DNA of 45,664 nt. It comes from Anaerolineales bacterium. GTDB taxonomy: Bacteria > Chloroflexota > Anaerolineae > Anaerolineales > Villigracilaceae. Location: the NCBI GenBank assembly GCA_025056175.1, contig JANWWK010000011.1, positions 1-45,664 on the forward strand. The letters run 5' to 3'. Made by a program: the position numbers and the translations under genes. Shown here one piece after another: positions 1 to 7,231 of the stretch (position 1 is its first letter; every line of letters starts with the position of its first letter). The notes beneath the pieces were generated by a model. It did no database searches. It was not told the origin of the DNA and was given only the letters and a program-made list of their open reading frames with translations.

Positions 1-1897
1 TTTGTGTTGGGGCAGCCGTCGGTTCTGGGGAGGGCAAAACCGGCGTTGGTTGGGGTTGATAAACTGCGTTCACGTCGGCAGGTTCAGGCTGAACACGCTC
101 GCCAGGGGCAAAGACATCCAGCAATCCGTTGAAAATGACGAACCCGTTGTTGGTGCCGAGCGAGAGCGTGGCGGAACGCAAATCGAGGACAAAAATCCCG
201 TTTTCCCCAAGCACACGCGCGCCTTCGGAAGTAATTTCCAGCGCGGTATTGGCATTCAGACCAATCGCAAGCAGGTCGGGGTGGTTGTAGGCCAGCGAGA
301 ACAGCCGCCCAAAGCGTTTATCGGCCAATACTTGCGGTTGCAGGGTGATGGGAAGCAATCCCACGCCTGTTTCGATTTTGGTTTTGCCCTGCAGAAAAGA
401 GCGTTGAACGGCAATTTCTTCCTGCTCAGCGTCGCCGGTGGGAGTGGGGCCGTGTGCGGCATAGAAAGCGCCGAAGAGCGTGGCGGCGGCGTTATCGGCC
501 AGGATGGGTTTGCCCTGCATCCAGTACATTTCTTTCACCCATTGCGGAGGGGTCATCTTGCTGGCATCGCGGCCCACGAAGACGAAGCCGGTCACTTCGG
601 GCGGGGGCGCTTGGTGAAAGACGCCGTTTGCATCGGCTACCCAAACGTTCGTTTTTGCGCCCAATTTGGTCAGGGCGTCAGCGTAGCGTTTGGCTGCGCG
701 TTCGTTGGCGGCAGGCGATGCACCGCCATCGGCAATCACCAGCAGGTTGGCGTTTTGGCCGCCCGCCAGTTCGATGAAGCGTTTGAGAATGGGGTTGTCC
801 TCGAGCGAATTGGAAATATCACCGGAAAGAATGAGCGCGCCCGCGCCGGGCGGCAGAGAGAGAGAATCGAACGAACGCTCGATTGTTTCGGCGGGCTCGT
901 AACGTACATCCCCTCTTTGCGGCACACGGGTCTTCAGGTTGTAGGCCGAATCGCCCGGTGAGAGCAGAGTGAGCAGGATGTTGCGCACGCTGATGAGCGG
1001 TGGGTGGTTTGGGGAGAGGGTGATGTAGCGAACGGAATCGGCAGCGTGATAGGTTTCGGCATCCAGAATAGTCACCGTGTATAGACCAAAGACATCGCGT
1101 ATCAGGCTTCCCTCGGCAGCTACGCCGGTATAAGCATCTACACCCACGCCCAGATGGGGCAAATCGGGGCGGGTGATGACGCTGATGAGTCGTCCTATGC
1201 GGGCACGCTGTTGAAAATGCTGGTCTATGATGGCTTCTTGAACGCCAAACGACAAACCACGCTTTTCTGCCGTGTTCCAGACTTCAACCGAATTGAAAAA
1301 CAGGGCATTTTCGGGGGCATAGTTTGGGTTATAAGCCGCCAGCATGACTCTGGATTGCATGGCTCCCCCGGCGCTTGTGCCAGCAATCACCGTCCCCTCT
1401 GCATGAAGTTCGGCCAGTCGCCGTTCGGCAGGAGTATCTATGAGGGCCTGCATAGCAACGGCCTGGTCGCCGCCCAGAATGAAGACCGCTGAGACTTTTC
1501 CGCTCATCATCTCCAAAACGGCGGGGTCGGCGGCATCGGAACGCGTAAAAAGGGGCAGCAATACCACTTTACAGGTCAGTTCGGCAGGGGCATTGCGACG
1601 ACATGCGCCCTCCACTTGCCGGCGGCGCTCTTCAGCGTCCTTCAGGTTTTGGGTGCGTTCGGCCTGGCTGATTTGTTCGGCGTTTGTGGCGTAAGGCGCC
1701 GGTAAAATGAGGATTTTGACCACACCGTTGTGCGCATTCGCAACGGCGTATCTGGCAAAGCCGTTGTAAATATCAGTATAGCCACCCCCGATGGGAAGTA
1801 ACACGCCAGGGGATGTCTGTGCATGTGCGGAAGAAAACAGGGAGGCAAACAAAAAAATGATAGAACTGATGACCAGGAACGAGCGGCAGGAAAACAC
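1..1897 (-). CDS. Secreted two-domain peptidase S51 (cyanophycinase-like) protein, 3' end outside window
   Basis: The gene starts with GTG at 1897, after AGGAGG at 1903-1908 (5-nt spacer), and stays open to the left edge (632 codons seen). An N-terminal signal peptide ends near SSAHAQ (residue ~27). Residues ~33-300 form an S51 domain: LGGDQ (Q145), the nucleophile motif AGTSAGG (S175), DQHF (D225, Q226, H227) and R231, R233, R236. These match the substrate pocket of cyanophycinase, but the Glu expected after GVGVD is Ala255. Residues ~340-600 resemble a second S51 domain without a Ser nucleophile (ADNAAA at the elbow position) and without the DQH motif, so it is probably a non-catalytic domain. 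A Pro-rich stretch (PQPTPVLPSPEP) follows at the edge. The protein is probably exported and may trim or bind extracellular Asp-rich peptides. It is the last visible gene of the operon and its ribosome site overlaps the stop of the permease before it. Family assignment is firm; activity and substrate are inference. Confidence 0.85.
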   Translation of the reverse strand, partial: MFSCRSFLVISSIIFLFASLFSSAHAQTSPGVLLPIGGGYTDIYNGFARYAVANAHNGVVKILILPAPYATNAEQISQAERTQNLKDAEERRRQVEGACRRNAPAELTCKVVLLPLFTRSDAADPAVLEMMSGKVSAVFILGGDQAVAMQALIDTPAERRLAELHAEGTVIAGTSAGGAMQSRVMLAAYNPNYAPENALFFNSVEVWNTAEKRGLSFGVQEAIIDQHFQQRARIGRLISVITRPDLPHLGVGVDAYTGVAAEGSLIRDVFGLYTVTILDAETYHAADSVRYITLSPNHPPLISVRNILLTLLSPGDSAYNLKTRVPQRGDVRYEPAETIERSFDSLSLPPGAGALILSGDISNSLEDNPILKRFIELAGGQNANLLVIADGGASPAANERAAKRYADALTKLGAKTNVWVADANGVFHQAPPPEVTGFVFVGRDASKMTPPQWVKEMYWMQGKPILADNAAATLFGAFYAAHGPTPTGDAEQEEIAVQRSFLQGKTKIETGVGLLPITLQPQVLADKRFGRLFSLAYNHPDLLAIGLNANTALEITSEGARVLGENGIFVLDLRSATLSLGTNNGFVIFNGLLDVFAPGERVQPEPADVNAVYQPQPTPVLPSPEPTAAPTQ

Positions 1898-1906
1898 AGA
1901 AACCTC

Positions 1907-2803
1907 CTAGCGTGGTGCATGACGCGGGTCGAGTGCATCACGCAGGCCATCGCCAATGTAGTTGATGGAAATGACGACCAGGAAAATCATCAGCCCAGGG
2001 AAAATGGCCGTCCAGGGGGCTGTAGTCATCTGGCTTTGGGTATTCGAGAGCATATTGCCCCACGTGGGCGTGGGCAATTGCACACCAAAGCCCAGATAAG
2101 AGAGACCACTCTCACTGATAATGGCACTCGAAAGGCCCAGAGTCGCCGAGACGATGATGGGACTGGCAACGTTGGGAAGAATATGCTGAAACAAGGTACG
2201 CAAATTCGAACCACCCAGTGCACGGCAAGCCTGAACGAACTCACGTTCCCGTAAAGCCAGGGTAGAAGCGCGCACCATGCGCGCCGTTCCCATCCAGGAA
2301 AGCGCACCGATGACGAACGCAATTGGCAAAAACGAACCGGCTTGCAGATAAGGCAGGTCGAGCGTGCGCAGAAACATGCCCAGCGCAATCAGCACGAACA
2401 GGCGCGGAATGGAGAGAAAAATTTCCGTAATCCGCATCAAGATGCTATCTACCCAGCCGCCATAGTAGCCGGAAACCAGCCCGATAAGTGACCCCAGAAC
2501 AATCGAAACAGCCATCGCAAGTAGTCCAACCGAGAGAGAAATACGCCCCCCGTAGAGAATCCGCGTCCATAAATCTCGACCCAAATCATCAGTGCCAAGC
2601 CAATGTGTAGCAGAAGGCGGCTGAAAGCGATTGAGTAGATTCTGCTTCATCGGGTCATAAGGAGCTATGAGAGGCGCAATTGCGGTTAGTACGACAATCG
2701 AAAAAACGATGACAATTCCGACCAGCGCCATTTTGTGCTTGCGAAACCGACGCCAGAACAACAGCCAGGGCGATTGGGGAACATGGGTAACGGAGGGTTT
2801 CAT
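1907..2803 (-). CDS. Peptide ABC transporter permease, DppC/OppC type
   Basis: A 298-residue inner-membrane permease. The cytoplasmic N-terminus (FWRRFRKHKMALVG) and the sequence NRFQPPSATHWLGTDDLGRD are hallmarks of DppC/OppC proteins. About six membrane segments follow. The EAA loop that docks the ATPase is visible around REFVQACRALGGSNLRTL. It should pair with the permease encoded 9 bp upstream to carry di- or oligopeptides delivered by the binding lipoprotein. No ATPase gene (dppD/dppF type) is present in the window, so the ATPases lie beyond the left edge or elsewhere. Peptide specificity is inferred from the family and from the S51 peptidases in the same operon; nickel or sugar-oligomer relatives of this family exist. 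Confidence 0.9.
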   Translation of the reverse strand: MKPSVTHVPQSPWLLFWRRFRKHKMALVGIVIVFSIVVLTAIAPLIAPYDPMKQNLLNRFQPPSATHWLGTDDLGRDLWTRILYGGRISLSVGLLAMAVSIVLGSLIGLVSGYYGGWVDSILMRITEIFLSIPRLFVLIALGMFLRTLDLPYLQAGSFLPIAFVIGALSWMGTARMVRASTLALREREFVQACRALGGSNLRTLFQHILPNVASPIIVSATLGLSSAIISESGLSYLGFGVQLPTPTWGNMLSNTQSQMTTAPWTAIFPGLMIFLVVISINYIGDGLRDALDPRHAPR

Positions 2804-2812
2804 ACGGGTGAC

Positions 2813-3784
2813 CTAGGACAGACGAATGCGCGGGTCAAGCGCGGCATACACCAAATCCACCAGCAAAGTGGAAAGGACGATAAGCGCGGAGTAAATCATC
2901 AGGGTTGCCATGACCAATGGGTAATCATTCTTCATGGCAGCAGTAAAATACAACCGACCAATTCCTGGCCAGGCAAAGATGGTTTCTGTGAACAGCGCGC
3001 CGCCAAACAGCGAGGGCAGGTCTAAACCGACCAGAGTCACCAGAGGGATGATGGCATTCCGCAAACCGTGTTTGTAGATAACTTTCCACTCTCGCAAGCC
3101 TTTTGCACGCGCTGTGCGGATGTAGTCCTCGTGGATGACATCCAGCATAGAGGAGCGCAGGTAGCGCATGTATTCTGCCGAAGAGACGAACGTGAGCATG
3201 GTGACAGGCAAGATGAGATGCCGAATGCGGTCCCACAGCGAGAACGGTTCGCCCAGAGTATACATGCCGGCTCCCGGCAACAGTGGACGCCCATCGGGGC
3301 CTTTGAGCAAAACGGCAAAGACAATGATAAGCACCAGCCCAAACCAGAACACCGGCAGCGATTGTCCCGCAAAGGCAAGCGTGGTGAAGAAATGGTCGAA
3401 CCAGGAATACTGTCGAACAGCGGAGAAAATTCCCAGTGGAATTGCCACCAGCAACGTGCATATCATCATCAATCCCATTAACAGTAACGTGTTCGGCAAG
3501 CGGCTGGCAATTTCTTCTAACACCGGGCGCTTGGAGGTCAGAGATTTTCCCCAATCTCCCTGTAACAGATTGCCGAGCCATTTCAAGTAACGCACAGGAA
3601 TTGGGTCGTCAAGACCTAATTTTGCACGGATACGCGCCAAATCTTCCGGACTCATATCCGATTTCTCGGCATACACGGTCATAAACCCGCCGGGCGCCGC
3701 GGAAATCAGCCCAAAAAGGATAAAACTGATTGCCAGCAGGGTAAGAGCGGCTTGGAACAGGCGACGAATGAGATATGTGGTCAT
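2813..3784 (-). CDS. Peptide ABC transporter permease, DppB/OppB type
   Basis: A 323-residue membrane permease starting MTTYLIRRLFQAALTLLAIS, the usual DppB/OppB beginning. The long periplasmic segment after helix 1 (residues ~30-90) contains PEDLARIRAKLGLDDPIPVRY and GDWGKSL, both typical. The EAA loop is at DYIRTARAKGLREWKVIYKHGLRNA. A GTG at 3796 would add four residues, but it lies in the stem of a strong hairpin and neither start has a clear Shine-Dalgarno site; the ATG at 3784 fits the family. It is followed 9 bp later by the partner permease. Confidence 0.9.
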   Translation of the reverse strand: MTTYLIRRLFQAALTLLAISFILFGLISAAPGGFMTVYAEKSDMSPEDLARIRAKLGLDDPIPVRYLKWLGNLLQGDWGKSLTSKRPVLEEIASRLPNTLLLMGLMMICTLLVAIPLGIFSAVRQYSWFDHFFTTLAFAGQSLPVFWFGLVLIIVFAVLLKGPDGRPLLPGAGMYTLGEPFSLWDRIRHLILPVTMLTFVSSAEYMRYLRSSMLDVIHEDYIRTARAKGLREWKVIYKHGLRNAIIPLVTLVGLDLPSLFGGALFTETIFAWPGIGRLYFTAAMKNDYPLVMATLMIYSALIVLSTLLVDLVYAALDPRIRLS

Positions 3785-3795
3785 AGCAATTTGCA

Positions 3796-3827
3796 CGTCA
3801 GGACAGGCCGGGCAGCCTGTCCTGACG
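3796..3827 (-). promoter_or_regulatory. Intercistronic hairpin between binding protein and permease genes
   Basis: A perfect 13-bp inverted repeat (3796-3808 and 3815-3827) with a 6-nt loop sits between the binding-protein stop (3846) and the permease start. No T-run follows on the minus strand, so it is not a classical terminator. In other importer operons such hairpins protect the upstream mRNA and keep the binding protein in excess over the permeases; that role is inferred here. Confidence 0.7.
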
Positions 3828-3845
3828 AGATAAAGTGTGTCTGGG

Positions 3846-5594
3846 CTATTTGCTTAACCACCAGTCTTGTGCCTTCCAGGCAAAATCCACAAAACTGGGG
3901 GAGATGAGCAAGTTGCGAAATTCTTTGCGGTGTCCGGTAATGGAGAGCCGTTCGTACAGATAGATGCGGGGAATATCTTTATTAATTTGCTCGGCCACTT
4001 TGCAGTAGAGCGCTTTGCGCGTGGCGGTATCCATCGAAACGGCAGCTTCGTCAATCCACCGGTCCACATCGGGGTTGATATAGCGGCTGAAATTGGCACC
4101 AGACCACTCATTTTCGGCGGTGGGAATACGATAGCTGGTGTAGTTGCTGAAGAGGTGGCTATCAGGGTCTAACGCCGGGCCGGTGGTGTAGAGAATGATG
4201 TCAAATTTACCCAGGTCGCGCAACCCATCGCTCTCGCCACCGGCGAAGAAGACATCCGAAGGCATGTTTTCGATGGTCAGTTCGATGCCCACTTCTTTCA
4301 GCATTTCGGCCAATACCTGCTCGGTTTGCTCGCGCAACAGATTACCACTGGTGGAATTGATTTTCAGGCTCAGACGCATGCCATTTTTTTCGCGGATACC
4401 ATCCGTTCCCACGTTCCAGCCGGCTTCTTCGAGCAGGGCTTTGGCTTTTTCGGGGTTGTATTCGCTGGGCGGCTGGGGACAGGCAAACGGCCCCACCGGC
4501 AACACCGTGCTGCCAGGTTTGACGTTCCCGTACAGCAAAGTATCGGCAATTTTTTGCTTGTCAATAGCGTATTGAATGGCCTGACGTACACGCAAATCAT
4601 ACAAGATAGGATGCGGGTTGGCAGCAGGATCGGCAGGAGCGCTACCATCATTCGCGCCAAAGTTCAACACCAGAAGTTCATTTTCTCCGGTGATGGCCGC
4701 AGAGAAGGTGACTCCTTGTGCTTCCATTTTGGTCAGCGAAGGCAGGTCAGCTTCGGTAATATCCCACAAGGCATGAATTTCACCAGTGCCGAGCAACTGG
4801 ATGCCTACTTCGCGGGAGGGCAGAACGCGGATGATGACCTTATCCAGATAGGGCTTGCCTTCTTCGCGGTAATACGGATTGCGGACGAAGGTGAGATGGT
4901 CGCCAGGCACCCACTCTTCTAACACGAACGGTCCGGTTCCCCAGGGCTTCTGATTGTATTCCCATGTTTCCATCTGGTCGAGTGGACCGGCATCGCTCGG
5001 CACAATGTAAGCAAACAGGCGCAAATACGGGGCATATAATTCAGAGAATGTGGCAACCACCGTATAGGGGTCAGGACATTCGAGCGTCTCGATGTCACGG
5101 TAGCCTGAGGTACTGACTTGTGAGAGGTCGGAAAGTGCGCCTTCCATAGTGAACTTTACGTCATCACACGTAAATTCCTTCCCATTCGAGAACTTGACCC
5201 CTTTTTTCAATTTCCATGTGACCACCAGACCATCTTCTGAAACGGTCGGCAGTTCTTCGGCCAAAACGGGAACGTATTCCCCTTTTTCATCTACCTGAAC
5301 CAGGCCTTCGACGAATAGAGAGGTCACGGCATCTTCGATAGAGGATGTGGTGAGCAACGTGTTGAGAATGGCCGGTTCCTGCGGCGTGCCGAAAATAAGT
5401 GTGCCGCCCTTGACTGGCGCGTTGGGGTCAACAGTGGGGGCTTCGGTGGCCGCAGGCTGAGCAGGTTGCTGTGGCTGCGCGGGCTGTTGTGGCTGTTCGG
5501 GCTGGGAAGGAGCCGGGGTGGCCGGGCTTCCGCAGGCGGCCAGAATCAGCGCCAGCGCCGTTATGAGGAAGAACAGGGGTTTGAACGACTTCAT
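3846..5594 (-). CDS. Peptide-binding lipoprotein (SBP family 5) of ABC transporter
   Basis: A 582-residue extracytoplasmic solute-binding protein. The start at 5594 (MKSFKPLFFLITALALILAA) is chosen because AGGAG lies 7 nt upstream; the open frame reaches back to 5627. The lipobox LAAC puts the acylated Cys at residue 21, followed by a Pro/Gln/Ala linker (~22-60). Family 5 features follow: GGTLIFGTPQEP, VPVLAEELPTVSEDGLVVTW, VKFSNGKEFTCDDVKFTME and the C-terminal part DLRVRQAIQYAIDKQKIAD. It should capture di/oligopeptides at the cell surface and hand them to the two permeases downstream. A hairpin after the stop probably raises its share of the mRNA. The ligand cannot be read from sequence; the neighbouring cyanophycinase suggests Asp-Arg-like dipeptides (inference). 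Confidence 0.9.
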   Translation of the reverse strand: MKSFKPLFFLITALALILAACGSPATPAPSQPEQPQQPAQPQQPAQPAATEAPTVDPNAPVKGGTLIFGTPQEPAILNTLLTTSSIEDAVTSLFVEGLVQVDEKGEYVPVLAEELPTVSEDGLVVTWKLKKGVKFSNGKEFTCDDVKFTMEGALSDLSQVSTSGYRDIETLECPDPYTVVATFSELYAPYLRLFAYIVPSDAGPLDQMETWEYNQKPWGTGPFVLEEWVPGDHLTFVRNPYYREEGKPYLDKVIIRVLPSREVGIQLLGTGEIHALWDITEADLPSLTKMEAQGVTFSAAITGENELLVLNFGANDGSAPADPAANPHPILYDLRVRQAIQYAIDKQKIADTLLYGNVKPGSTVLPVGPFACPQPPSEYNPEKAKALLEEAGWNVGTDGIREKNGMRLSLKINSTSGNLLREQTEQVLAEMLKEVGIELTIENMPSDVFFAGGESDGLRDLGKFDIILYTTGPALDPDSHLFSNYTSYRIPTAENEWSGANFSRYINPDVDRWIDEAAVSMDTATRKALYCKVAEQINKDIPRIYLYERLSITGHRKEFRNLLISPSFVDFAWKAQDWWLSK

Positions 5595-5623
5595 GCTTCT
5601 TCTCCTTTTGGATTTCTTTCCGG

Positions 5624-6430
5624 TCATTCAGCCGGGAGCGTTTTGTGCGGGAGGCGCACCTGGCGCGTCTTCCCGTCATACACACAGCCGTCGGTCAAAA
5701 CATGGAGTTTGAGATTTGCCACTGCAACTGCGCCACGACGTTCGATTTCGGCTACATCCGTCGCAGTGATTTCGCGCCCATCCACAATTGTCACCGCGCC
5801 AGAGCCACAGACGATGATGGTTTCATCGTCTTCTACGATGGCGGCGGTATCTTCATCTATCCCGACTCCGAGAATGCCAGGGTGGGTGGCAACGGCGTAA
5901 ATCAGGCGTCCCAGCCGGTCACGCTGACGGAAGTGCTGGTCGAAGGTGAAGCGGTCGGTGAATCCCAGCCCCGGCGTAAATTGAACGATGCCCGCGCGCG
6001 GGGTGGGGCCATTTTTGCCGTAAGCAATCATGGTTTTGGAGAGAACCGAAGCGCCTGCGCTGGTGCCGGCAATGACACAACCACGTTGGTAGGCCTGGTG
6101 CAGGGCCGTTTCGAGGGCGGTTCCGCCCAGAAGTTGCGTCAGGCGCATTTGTGCGCCGCCAGTAAAGAAGATGCCGCTGGCTTCGGCGAGGATGCGTAGA
6201 TGTTCAGGTTGGTCGGCTTCGCTTCGAGAGCGGAATTCGAGCGAAACGGCCTGGCCGGCGCCCAATTCCAGACATTGCTGAACGTAGACATTCCCGGTTT
6301 CCTGCAGCGCCGAAGCCTGGGGCAGAATAACGATGCTGGCAGAACGTCCGCCGGCGCGCTGGATGAATTCGCTCATCACGCGCGGGTGTTCTTTGTCCAT
6401 CGCGCCGCCGATGGGCATCAACGTTCTCAT
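5624..6430 (-). CDS. cphB: Cyanophycinase-like peptidase S51, cytoplasmic
   Basis: A 268-residue protein with no signal peptide, close to the ~270 residues usual for CphB. The nucleophile elbow is AGTSAGAS (S124), with FTGGAQ (Q94), FDQHFRQRDRLGR (D164, Q165, H166, R170, R172, R175) and GIDED (E193). The H-to-E distance (27) and the Arg spacing (+4, +6, +9) equal those I recall for Synechocystis cyanophycinase (S132, H174, E201, Q101, D172, Q173, R178, R180, R183), so the whole pocket is kept. Cyanophycinase cuts the Asp-Arg polymer cyanophycin to beta-Asp-Arg dipeptides. The ATG overlaps the stop of the GntR gene (ATGA). No cphA synthetase is in the window, so the enzyme may act on imported peptides; other S51 enzymes cut alpha-aspartyl peptides, which is the main alternative. 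Confidence 0.85.
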   Translation of the reverse strand: MRTLMPIGGAMDKEHPRVMSEFIQRAGGRSASIVILPQASALQETGNVYVQQCLELGAGQAVSLEFRSRSEADQPEHLRILAEASGIFFTGGAQMRLTQLLGGTALETALHQAYQRGCVIAGTSAGASVLSKTMIAYGKNGPTPRAGIVQFTPGLGFTDRFTFDQHFRQRDRLGRLIYAVATHPGILGVGIDEDTAAIVEDDETIIVCGSGAVTIVDGREITATDVAEIERRGAVAVANLKLHVLTDGCVYDGKTRQVRLPHKTLPAE

Positions 6431-7131
6431 GGCTGACCTGCTTTCTGTGTCTTCAAGGCGGTGTTCAGGGAGCCAAGCAAATGGCGGGCTGTGGTGAGGA
6501 TGTGAACACGCATGGCTTCTTCGGCCGACGAGGGTTGATGCGCGGCCAGTGCTTCAAAGATGGCGCGATGTTCGGCGCTATCGGTTTCATCCCGTTCAGG
6601 AAGCGGTTGGCTGGCAGTAGCGGCAAAGTTGCCAATTAACATTGTGGGGAAGGCCGCCCACATTTGCCCCAATGTGCGGATGAGATACTCGCGGCGGCTG
6701 GCGTTGAAAATGGTCTGATGAAAGCGCCGGTTGAGTTGACGATAGAGATTGACCCGCTCTGGCGCGGCGTTGGCTTCCATCTCATGCATCAGGGTTTCCA
6801 GTTCCTTCAGTTCTTCCGGCGTGATGCGTTCGGCGGCATACGCAGCGGCGCGGCCCTCCAGAAAAGCGCGGTGAGCATACAGGTCTTCGATGTCTTCTGC
6901 CGAAAACTCGATAACCCGCACGCCGCGATACGGCACGTGTTCAATCAATCCTTCGGCAGCCAGTTCCTTGAGCGCCTCGCGCACCGGCATCTGGCTGACA
7001 TTGAGTTCTTGCGCCAGTCGTTCTTGTCGAAGCCATTCTCCGGGTTTGTAACGGCCTTCCAGGATGGCGGTGCGCAACTGGTCGGCCACCAGATTGCGGA
7101 GTTGACGGTGCGTAGATGCGTCGGTCAGCAT
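6427..7131 (-). CDS. GntR-family regulator, FadR/FCD subfamily
   Basis: A 234-residue repressor-type protein. Residues ~10-75 form the GntR winged helix (LRTAILEGRYKPGEWLRQER, then LNVSQMPVREALKELAAEGL). Residues ~85-220 form the helical FCD ligand domain (FLEGRAAAYAAERI, NRRFHQTIFNAS, EHRAIFEALAA, VHILTTARHL); the His residues of the metal site are present, while the usual Asp of the DxxFH motif is Asn. It is the first gene of the operon, overlaps the cyanophycinase gene by 4 nt, and probably controls the unit through the repeats at 7161-7185, with an imported peptide or amino acid as inducer (inference). No strong Shine-Dalgarno site precedes the ATG. Confidence 0.88.
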   Translation of the reverse strand: MLTDASTHRQLRNLVADQLRTAILEGRYKPGEWLRQERLAQELNVSQMPVREALKELAAEGLIEHVPYRGVRVIEFSAEDIEDLYAHRAFLEGRAAAYAAERITPEELKELETLMHEMEANAAPERVNLYRQLNRRFHQTIFNASRREYLIRTLGQMWAAFPTMLIGNFAATASQPLPERDETDSAEHRAIFEALAAHQPSSAEEAMRVHILTTARHLLGSLNTALKTQKAGQP

Positions 7132-7160
7132 AAGAAGATGGACCCCGAATTGTGATTTTA

Positions 7161-7185
7161 GATATTAGATATAATATCGAATATC
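7161..7185 (-). promoter_or_regulatory. Candidate operator/promoter region of the GntR-cyanophycinase operon
   Basis: An AT-rich run of repeated half-sites, GATATT / GATAT / ATATC / AATATC, lies 30-54 bp upstream of the GntR ATG. It contains the dyad GATAT-A-ATATC and the wider dyad GATATT-N6-AATATC. On the minus strand it also contains TATTAT, a possible -10. Autoregulation by the first gene is the usual arrangement in this family; the site assignment is inference. Confidence 0.5.
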
Positions 7186-7231
7186 AGAATAGCACGTTCG
7201 CAAGCGCGAGTCAAGCAAAAACGGATTTTTT

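Follow-up and report, generated by a model that had tools for sequence, protein, structure and literature searches.

The closest described counterpart of the system considered here is the cyanophycin utilization locus of L21-Spi-D4, in which cyanophycinase genes are combined with a transporter for scavenging (work of Ben Hania et al., as described in PMC10206079, in part); such clusters are reported from genomes without cphA. In the same source, cyanophycinase and isoaspartyl dipeptidase genes are clustered in 45 of the 52 cphA-less genomes that have both, often with amino acid transporters. A six-gene operon at the left end of a contig of 45,664 nucleotides (JANWWK010000011.1; the whole contig is referred to as the window) from an Anaerolineales bacterium resembles these loci, as it joins a cyanophycinase with a transporter in a genome that has no cphA over the cut-off. 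It fits the idea of a scavenging cluster but comes without the dipeptidase, and is therefore classed as a variant. The L21-Spi-D4 locus, as presented in that source, has iadA, whereas the operon has neither iadA nor iaaA; the operon differs further in that its Opp-type importer lacks ATPases, its GntR regulator comes with a conserved operator, and its surface S51 protein is a tandem with an altered triad.

Single components have relatives of their own. CphB shares the catalytic triad, the pocket residues and a similar length with the cytoplasmic S51 enzyme of the operon, but is encoded near cphA and not with an importer. The secreted CphE of Pseudomonas (PMC3235067, in part) has secretion, Ser, His and the pocket residues in common with the surface S51 protein; unlike CphE, the latter is tandem and membrane-anchored, with Glu replaced by Ala and a degenerate second domain. 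In E. coli, iaaA lies beside gsiABCD, so that a beta-aspartyl peptidase is likewise encoded next to an Opp-type importer, but this peptidase is of another family and the importer, annotated for glutathione, has its own ATPase. No published description of the operon was found in the literature, judged by titles and abstract openings among the matches listed.

What might such a gene set do? It probably scavenges cyanophycin from other cells, most likely cyanobacteria, importing fragments and digesting them inside. The membrane-anchored tandem S51 protein would hold cyanophycin at the cell surface via its intact Asp-Arg pocket and nick it slowly at most. The lipoprotein and permeases B and C would take up the fragments with energy from an Opp-type ATPase pair whose genes lie elsewhere; the cytoplasmic cyanophycinase would cut these to beta-Asp-Arg, and a further enzyme would release Asp and Arg. 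The GntR/FCD protein would repress the operon at its own palindrome until an imported product frees the operator. Cyanophycin is the likely substrate. The choice of ATPase pair, the nature of the inducer and a receptor role for the surface protein are inferences, as is the import of fragments rather than dipeptides, the last because a lone beta-Asp-Arg dipeptide would leave the cytoplasmic cyanophycinase nothing to cut.

The operon and its cytoplasmic cyanophycinase

All six genes are on the minus strand. They begin with a GntR-type regulator of the FCD subfamily (6427-7131, 234 residues; FCD 90.8 bits, GntR 67.3 bits) and a cytoplasmic cyanophycinase of family S51 (5624-6430, 268 residues), followed by a substrate-binding lipoprotein of substrate-binding protein (SBP) family 5 (3846-5627, 593 residues as called), Opp/Dpp-type permease B (2813-3796, 327 residues; this and the lipoprotein by domain match) and permease C (1907-2803, 298 residues; Opp4C 361.2 bits, cut-off 350). 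The surface-anchored tandem S51 protein (1-1897, domain and profile matches) comes last. Distances along the operon are -4 (ATGA), -4 (ATGA), 49, 9 and 9 bases, and the six co-directional genes with ATGA overlaps or short gaps described in an earlier sequence-only reading stand as described in place, order and strand. For the lipoprotein, Met at codon 12 is a likelier start than the one called, and a lipobox, LILAAC, can be recognized by eye. The window is one entire contig (G000:C12), and its left edge, the contig end, cuts the last gene after residue 632. A search with the secreted S51 protein of a relative leads to the start of contig C3 (17,802 bases) for the C-terminus. C3 and the cut end of the operon have exactly 141 bases in common, apparently a k-mer overlap of the assembly, and C3 continues the tandem S51 gene through residue 698.

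The cytoplasmic enzyme is predicted to be a sound cyanophycinase. It scores 256.6 bits with the cyanophycinase equivalog TIGR02069 (cut-off 126.6) and 27.3 bits with the dipeptidase E model, and its top three matches among solved structures are all cyanophycinases (PDB 7uqv, 3en0 and 7uqw, the second and its companions being CphB structures). The triad S124-H166-E193 and the pocket Q94, D164, Q165, R170, R172 and R175 are complete; these nine catalytic and binding residues had been named beforehand and proved exactly right. Residues listed as critical in CphB (PMC3235067, in part) are retained in all 16 members of a clade comprising the genomes, source included, whose S51 enzyme is at least 50% identical (81 relatives and 400 genomes of the phylum were searched). 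Three features are established at the level of sequence: the cytoplasmic active site is intact, the surface protein has lost Glu, and no cphA can be recognized.

Could the polymer be made by the same cell? The best cphA match in the source genome reaches 109.9 bits, against a curated cut-off of 850, and none of 15 relatives has a match at an E-value of 1e-60; the absence of a recognizable cphA, first noticed for the window, extends to the genome. As a control, the model passes its cut-off in one of 14 named genomes and gives weak matches in all 14. More distant cyanophycinases are found in other company. Among plasmid sequences about 40% identical (36 matched), cphA adjoins the gene or is one gene off in all ten records examined among the 15 listed, and in eight of these ten the intervening gene is an isoaspartyl peptidase/asparaginase. 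Within the phylum, 47 of the 400 genomes match the cytoplasmic enzyme at 1e-30, and the neighbourhoods of 11 were examined. At loci 43-47% identical, cphA lies within 5 kb in six of eight (G135, G294, G323, G287, G454 and G554); none is near the enzyme in G037, and G096 is not judgeable on a contig of 3,205 bases. A locus with 38% identity (G030) has no cphA nearby. In a tree of 22 S51 sequences, the 16 clade members split from six cphA-linked ones with support of 97/93.

Inside the clade, the enzyme often lies with importer genes. The six-gene order is present in eight of the 16 genomes (the source, G000, and G152, G181, G186, G168, G205, G331 and G582), which bears out the expected linkage of S51 genes with SBP family 5; the contig of G181 begins inside the regulator gene. 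G152 is Anaerolineae bacterium Nak57 (locus L012), with an S51 enzyme 81% identical and six genes alike. With the cyanophycinase score, the importer linkage and the cphA result taken together, the proposal that an organism lacking cphA devotes this unit to uptake and degradation is supported.

The surface protein and the proposed route of uptake

Once joined across the two contigs, the secreted S51 protein has 698 residues. Behind a signal peptide come two S51 domains and a linker rich in Pro and Thr, and the chain ends in a hydrophobic anchor with a basic tail. The signal peptide, a hydrophobic amino terminus ending in AHAQ as would suit a CphE-type secreted protein, and the C-terminal anchor were judged by eye. 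At 140.9 bits the protein is over the cyanophycinase cut-off of 126.6. Domain 1 retains Ser and His (S175 and H227 in the window), the Gln of GGDQ, the Asp-Gln pair and three Arg in all eight operon copies, but the catalytic Glu is Ala in all eight, where G(V/I)DAYT stands for the G(I/L/V)DE of the cytoplasmic enzymes; the Ser-His-Glu triad is thus broken. Domain 2 can be aligned with a profile built from the cytoplasmic S51 enzymes (hhalign probability 99.2%, E-value 9e-20) but is degenerate, with other residues at the aligned nucleophile and His positions. An AlphaFold2 model of the tandem protein made from four sequences has a mean pLDDT (predicted local distance difference test) of 45.3, too low for a fold search, and supports no conclusion. 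Hence, of the secreted cyanophycinase-like protein of the sequence-only reading, secretion and family are upheld, but the protein is not simply a second cyanophycinase.

Might it nonetheless be an active enzyme? In a conventional two-step scheme, the secreted S51 protein would be an exo-cyanophycinase, the importer would take up beta-Asp-Arg and the cytoplasmic enzyme would finish stray oligomers. This is possible, if well short of even odds. It would agree with the score over the cyanophycinase cut-off and with the Ser, His and pocket residues kept in every operon copy, and it draws on the S51 peptidase MccG, in which replacing the third triad residue, Asp, by Ala substantially decreases protection, whereas Ser or His to Ala abolish it (PMC9239234, in part). 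It has to contend with Ala in all eight copies at a place where described secreted CphE enzymes have Glu (PMC3235067, in part), and it leaves little for the cytoplasmic cyanophycinase to do. Taken together, the change of Glu to Ala and the MccG result make the surface protein either a slow enzyme or a binder. Tentatively, then, the tandem S51 protein may be a cyanophycinase turned receptor, which binds the polymer through the retained pocket and hands fragments on to the importer, an arrangement that would amount to ‘selfish’ cyanophycin uptake with a beta-Asp-Arg hydrolase yet to be found.

Tandem S51 proteins also occur beyond the full operons. A search of 150 genomes of the class gave eight more of near full length and two partial ones (L085-L091), and these are more eroded than the operon copies (seven of the eight aligned, G021 left out). 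The catalytic Ser is absent in G129 and G085, and a stop codon lies within the matched stretch in G055 and G114. Just upstream of the eroded gene of G129 are fragments of permease C (L085 10609-10955), as if a remnant of a lost operon.

Promoter, operator and hairpin

Ahead of the regulator gene, a sigma-70-like promoter can be picked out by eye on the minus strand (7186-7214), with TTGACT (7214-7209) and TATTCT (7191-7186) separated by a 17-base spacer; TTGAC is at the matching position in all seven testable operons. Four bases past the -10-like TATTCT begins a palindromic operator (7158-7181, no strand assigned), with the consensus TTAGATATNATATCTAA. The window holds a copy at 7165-7181 with one mismatch and an overlapping copy at 7158-7174 with two. 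At up to two mismatches, the motif precedes the regulator in seven of seven testable operon copies (G181, cut by the contig start, is excluded): four are exact, the window and G582 have one mismatch, and G331 has two. Outside the operon sites, none was found at that tolerance in the 1,359,280 bases scanned, which comprise overlapping loci and fall short of the whole genome, nor did any appear in three mononucleotide shuffles or in 100 dinucleotide shuffles of the window. The regulator has a winged helix plus an FCD domain, as expected of its family, and is likely a repressor of its own operon. As facts of sequence, the gene set, its conservation and the likely switch are firm.

A second element lies inside the operon. 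Between the SBP and permease B genes, a 14-pair hairpin on the minus strand (3796-3827) extends to the first base of the start codon of permease B, and the entire gap folds at -27.5 kcal/mol. Seven of the eight operon copies have a strong hairpin here, of differing sequence, the whole gaps folding at -27.5 to -62.5 kcal/mol (values without shuffle control); the 20-base gap of G331 has none. Hairpins between binding-protein and permease genes are a known phenomenon, and this one likely serves an excess of binding protein over permeases. Similar palindromes, CAGGAC...GTCCTG, considered as a possible repeat element, are seen at 3799-3824 of the window and just behind the operon (L077 350-375). 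The window contains a single copy and C3 another, after the tandem gene; seven further stretches of this genome contain none, and all other loci together contain three. Rfam and tRNA scans of the window each gave 0 matches.

Distribution, missing partners and significance

A complete operon is also found outside the class of the window, in G331 (L153, G331:C1:3716000-3735000), most likely Chloroflexus aurantiacus J-10-fl, a cultured mat organism. Its S51 enzyme falls within the clade beside that of G181 (support 99/97), and its SBP shares 87% identity with the counterpart in the window, against 57% for G205, which belongs to the same order as the window. Because of this grouping and identity despite the differing class, the data suggest that the operon was transferred between classes. 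Other clade members show other arrangements. In G527 the cyanophycinase is followed by another type of Opp operon, a complete one (SBP, B, C, D and F; L155 7491-10104), and in G197 permeases B and C precede the cyanophycinase, with the contig end before the permeases; G160 is not judgeable, as its contig ends about 670 bases behind the S51 gene. The SBP of G527 is only 30% identical, and its neighbours include a divergent S9 peptidase and a creatininase-family gene. Four relatives with no importer nearby have the cyanophycinase beside ruvB (L143, L146, L147 and L148), and three of these genomes (G158, G159 and G150) have IaaA elsewhere.

Several observations weigh against the scavenging of cyanophycin by this operon. 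Cutting by the surface protein is doubtful, because the Glu kept by described secreted CphE enzymes is absent. The sequence of the SBP does not reveal its ligand, since its named relatives of solved structure bind peptides or nickel. Five of the 16 clade genomes have no importer genes nearby (G158, G151, G159, G150 and G179), and operon carriers and non-carriers are interleaved in the S51 tree, where support for several branches within the clade is weak. The importer is present in part, as an SBP and two permeases: Opp ATPases of its own are absent from the operon, its continuation on C3 included, and no known isoaspartyl dipeptidase was recognized in the source genome, as detailed below.

The ATPases and the dipeptidase had been placed tentatively past the left edge of the window, a suggestion that failed. 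On C3 the operon ends at the secreted S51 gene, and the open reading frames from base 674 onward run in the opposite direction, the first of them looking by eye like a YigZ-type protein and an aminotransferase. As these genes are on the other strand, the missing partners are not behind the operon; E. coli GsiA, IaaA and IadA had no tblastn match on C3 at an E-value of 1e-6. Nor are such partners behind the operon of Nak57, which is followed by genes for an alpha/beta hydrolase, a CoA-transferase, a hydroxyacid dehydrogenase and a HAD hydrolase. What, then, could power the importer? In G205 the tandem S51 gene is directly followed by two Opp ATPases, with which a pair on contig C11 of the source genome shares 65% and 73% identity. 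Identities are lower for C74 (51% and 61%), C63 (47% and 43%) and C58, the other contigs among the four that carry the ten Opp ATPase matches of this genome, and we infer that the C11 pair is the best candidate for the operon importer. The genome has eight SBP family 5 loci (ten matches, grouped manually), of which those on C34, C59 and C46 have no ATPase within the stretches examined; shared ATPases would therefore not be unusual in this organism.

The last step is another gap. The best IadA match in the source genome has 21.1 bits, against a cut-off of 331.25, a result that a divergent IadA could escape with an equivalog model, and IaaA (PF01112) has no match there. Among the 14 named control genomes, IadA passes in one and PF01112 in five. 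PF01112 is present in four of 15 relatives; of the seven other operon genomes, only G331 has IaaA, IadA not having been searched genome-wide in relatives. At the locus itself there is neither iadA nor iaaA, and that of Nak57 is likewise without. Two candidates were set aside: the amidohydrolases adjoining S51 in G159 and G150 are imidazolonepropionases (HutI, 431.9 and 442.2 bits), and the protein giving a weak IadA match on contig C55 of the source genome is a HutI relative, 81-83% identical to them. Operon carriers with no recognizable isoaspartyl dipeptidase point to a new enzyme for the final step.

Three other explanations are less likely. A general role in taking up isoaspartyl or Asp-rich peptides that decaying protein releases, with cyanophycin incidental, is rather improbable. 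The importer does come from a broad peptide family, and the pairing of iaaA with gsiABCD in E. coli is analogous. Such a role sits poorly with the CphB-critical residues kept throughout the clade, with the low dipeptidase E score and, again, with the missing isoaspartyl dipeptidase. Far less likely is detoxification, in which the S51 enzyme would destroy a peptidyl-nucleotide antibiotic after its import, the known role of the MccG group: that group has Asp third in the triad (PMC9239234, in part), whereas here Glu193 stands with a full cyanophycinase pocket, and a resistance operon would not be expected to include an importer together with a surface S51 protein. That the genes are mere neighbours of no common function, as the five genomes with no importer nearby might hint, is hardly credible, since the arrangement is conserved in eight copies across two classes and has 4-base overlaps and one operator.

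To our knowledge, the genes that let neighbours use cyanophycin in phototrophic mats are little worked out. The polymer is 26% nitrogen by mass (PMC10206079, in part), and glycogen and cyanophycin are the stores listed for hot-spring-mat Synechococcus spp. (PMC4400912, in part). Nak57 originates from hot-spring mats (PMC6013643, in part), and Chloroflexus aurantiacus J-10-fl from a hot-spring mat, together with cyanobacteria (PMC3150298, in part); the word ‘cyanophycin’ has 0 occurrences in the main text of the genome paper of the latter (PMC3150298). A potential to degrade cyanophycin has been ascribed to Anaerolineae bins (PMC6646835, in part). The operon constitutes a candidate gene set, with its own switch, for cyanophycin use, and at least two of its carriers come from hot-spring mats. 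As one carrier is very probably the cultured Chloroflexus aurantiacus, the idea is directly testable. If the surface protein is indeed a receptor, uptake would be comparable to the selfish uptake of polysaccharides, with little dipeptide leaking to neighbours.

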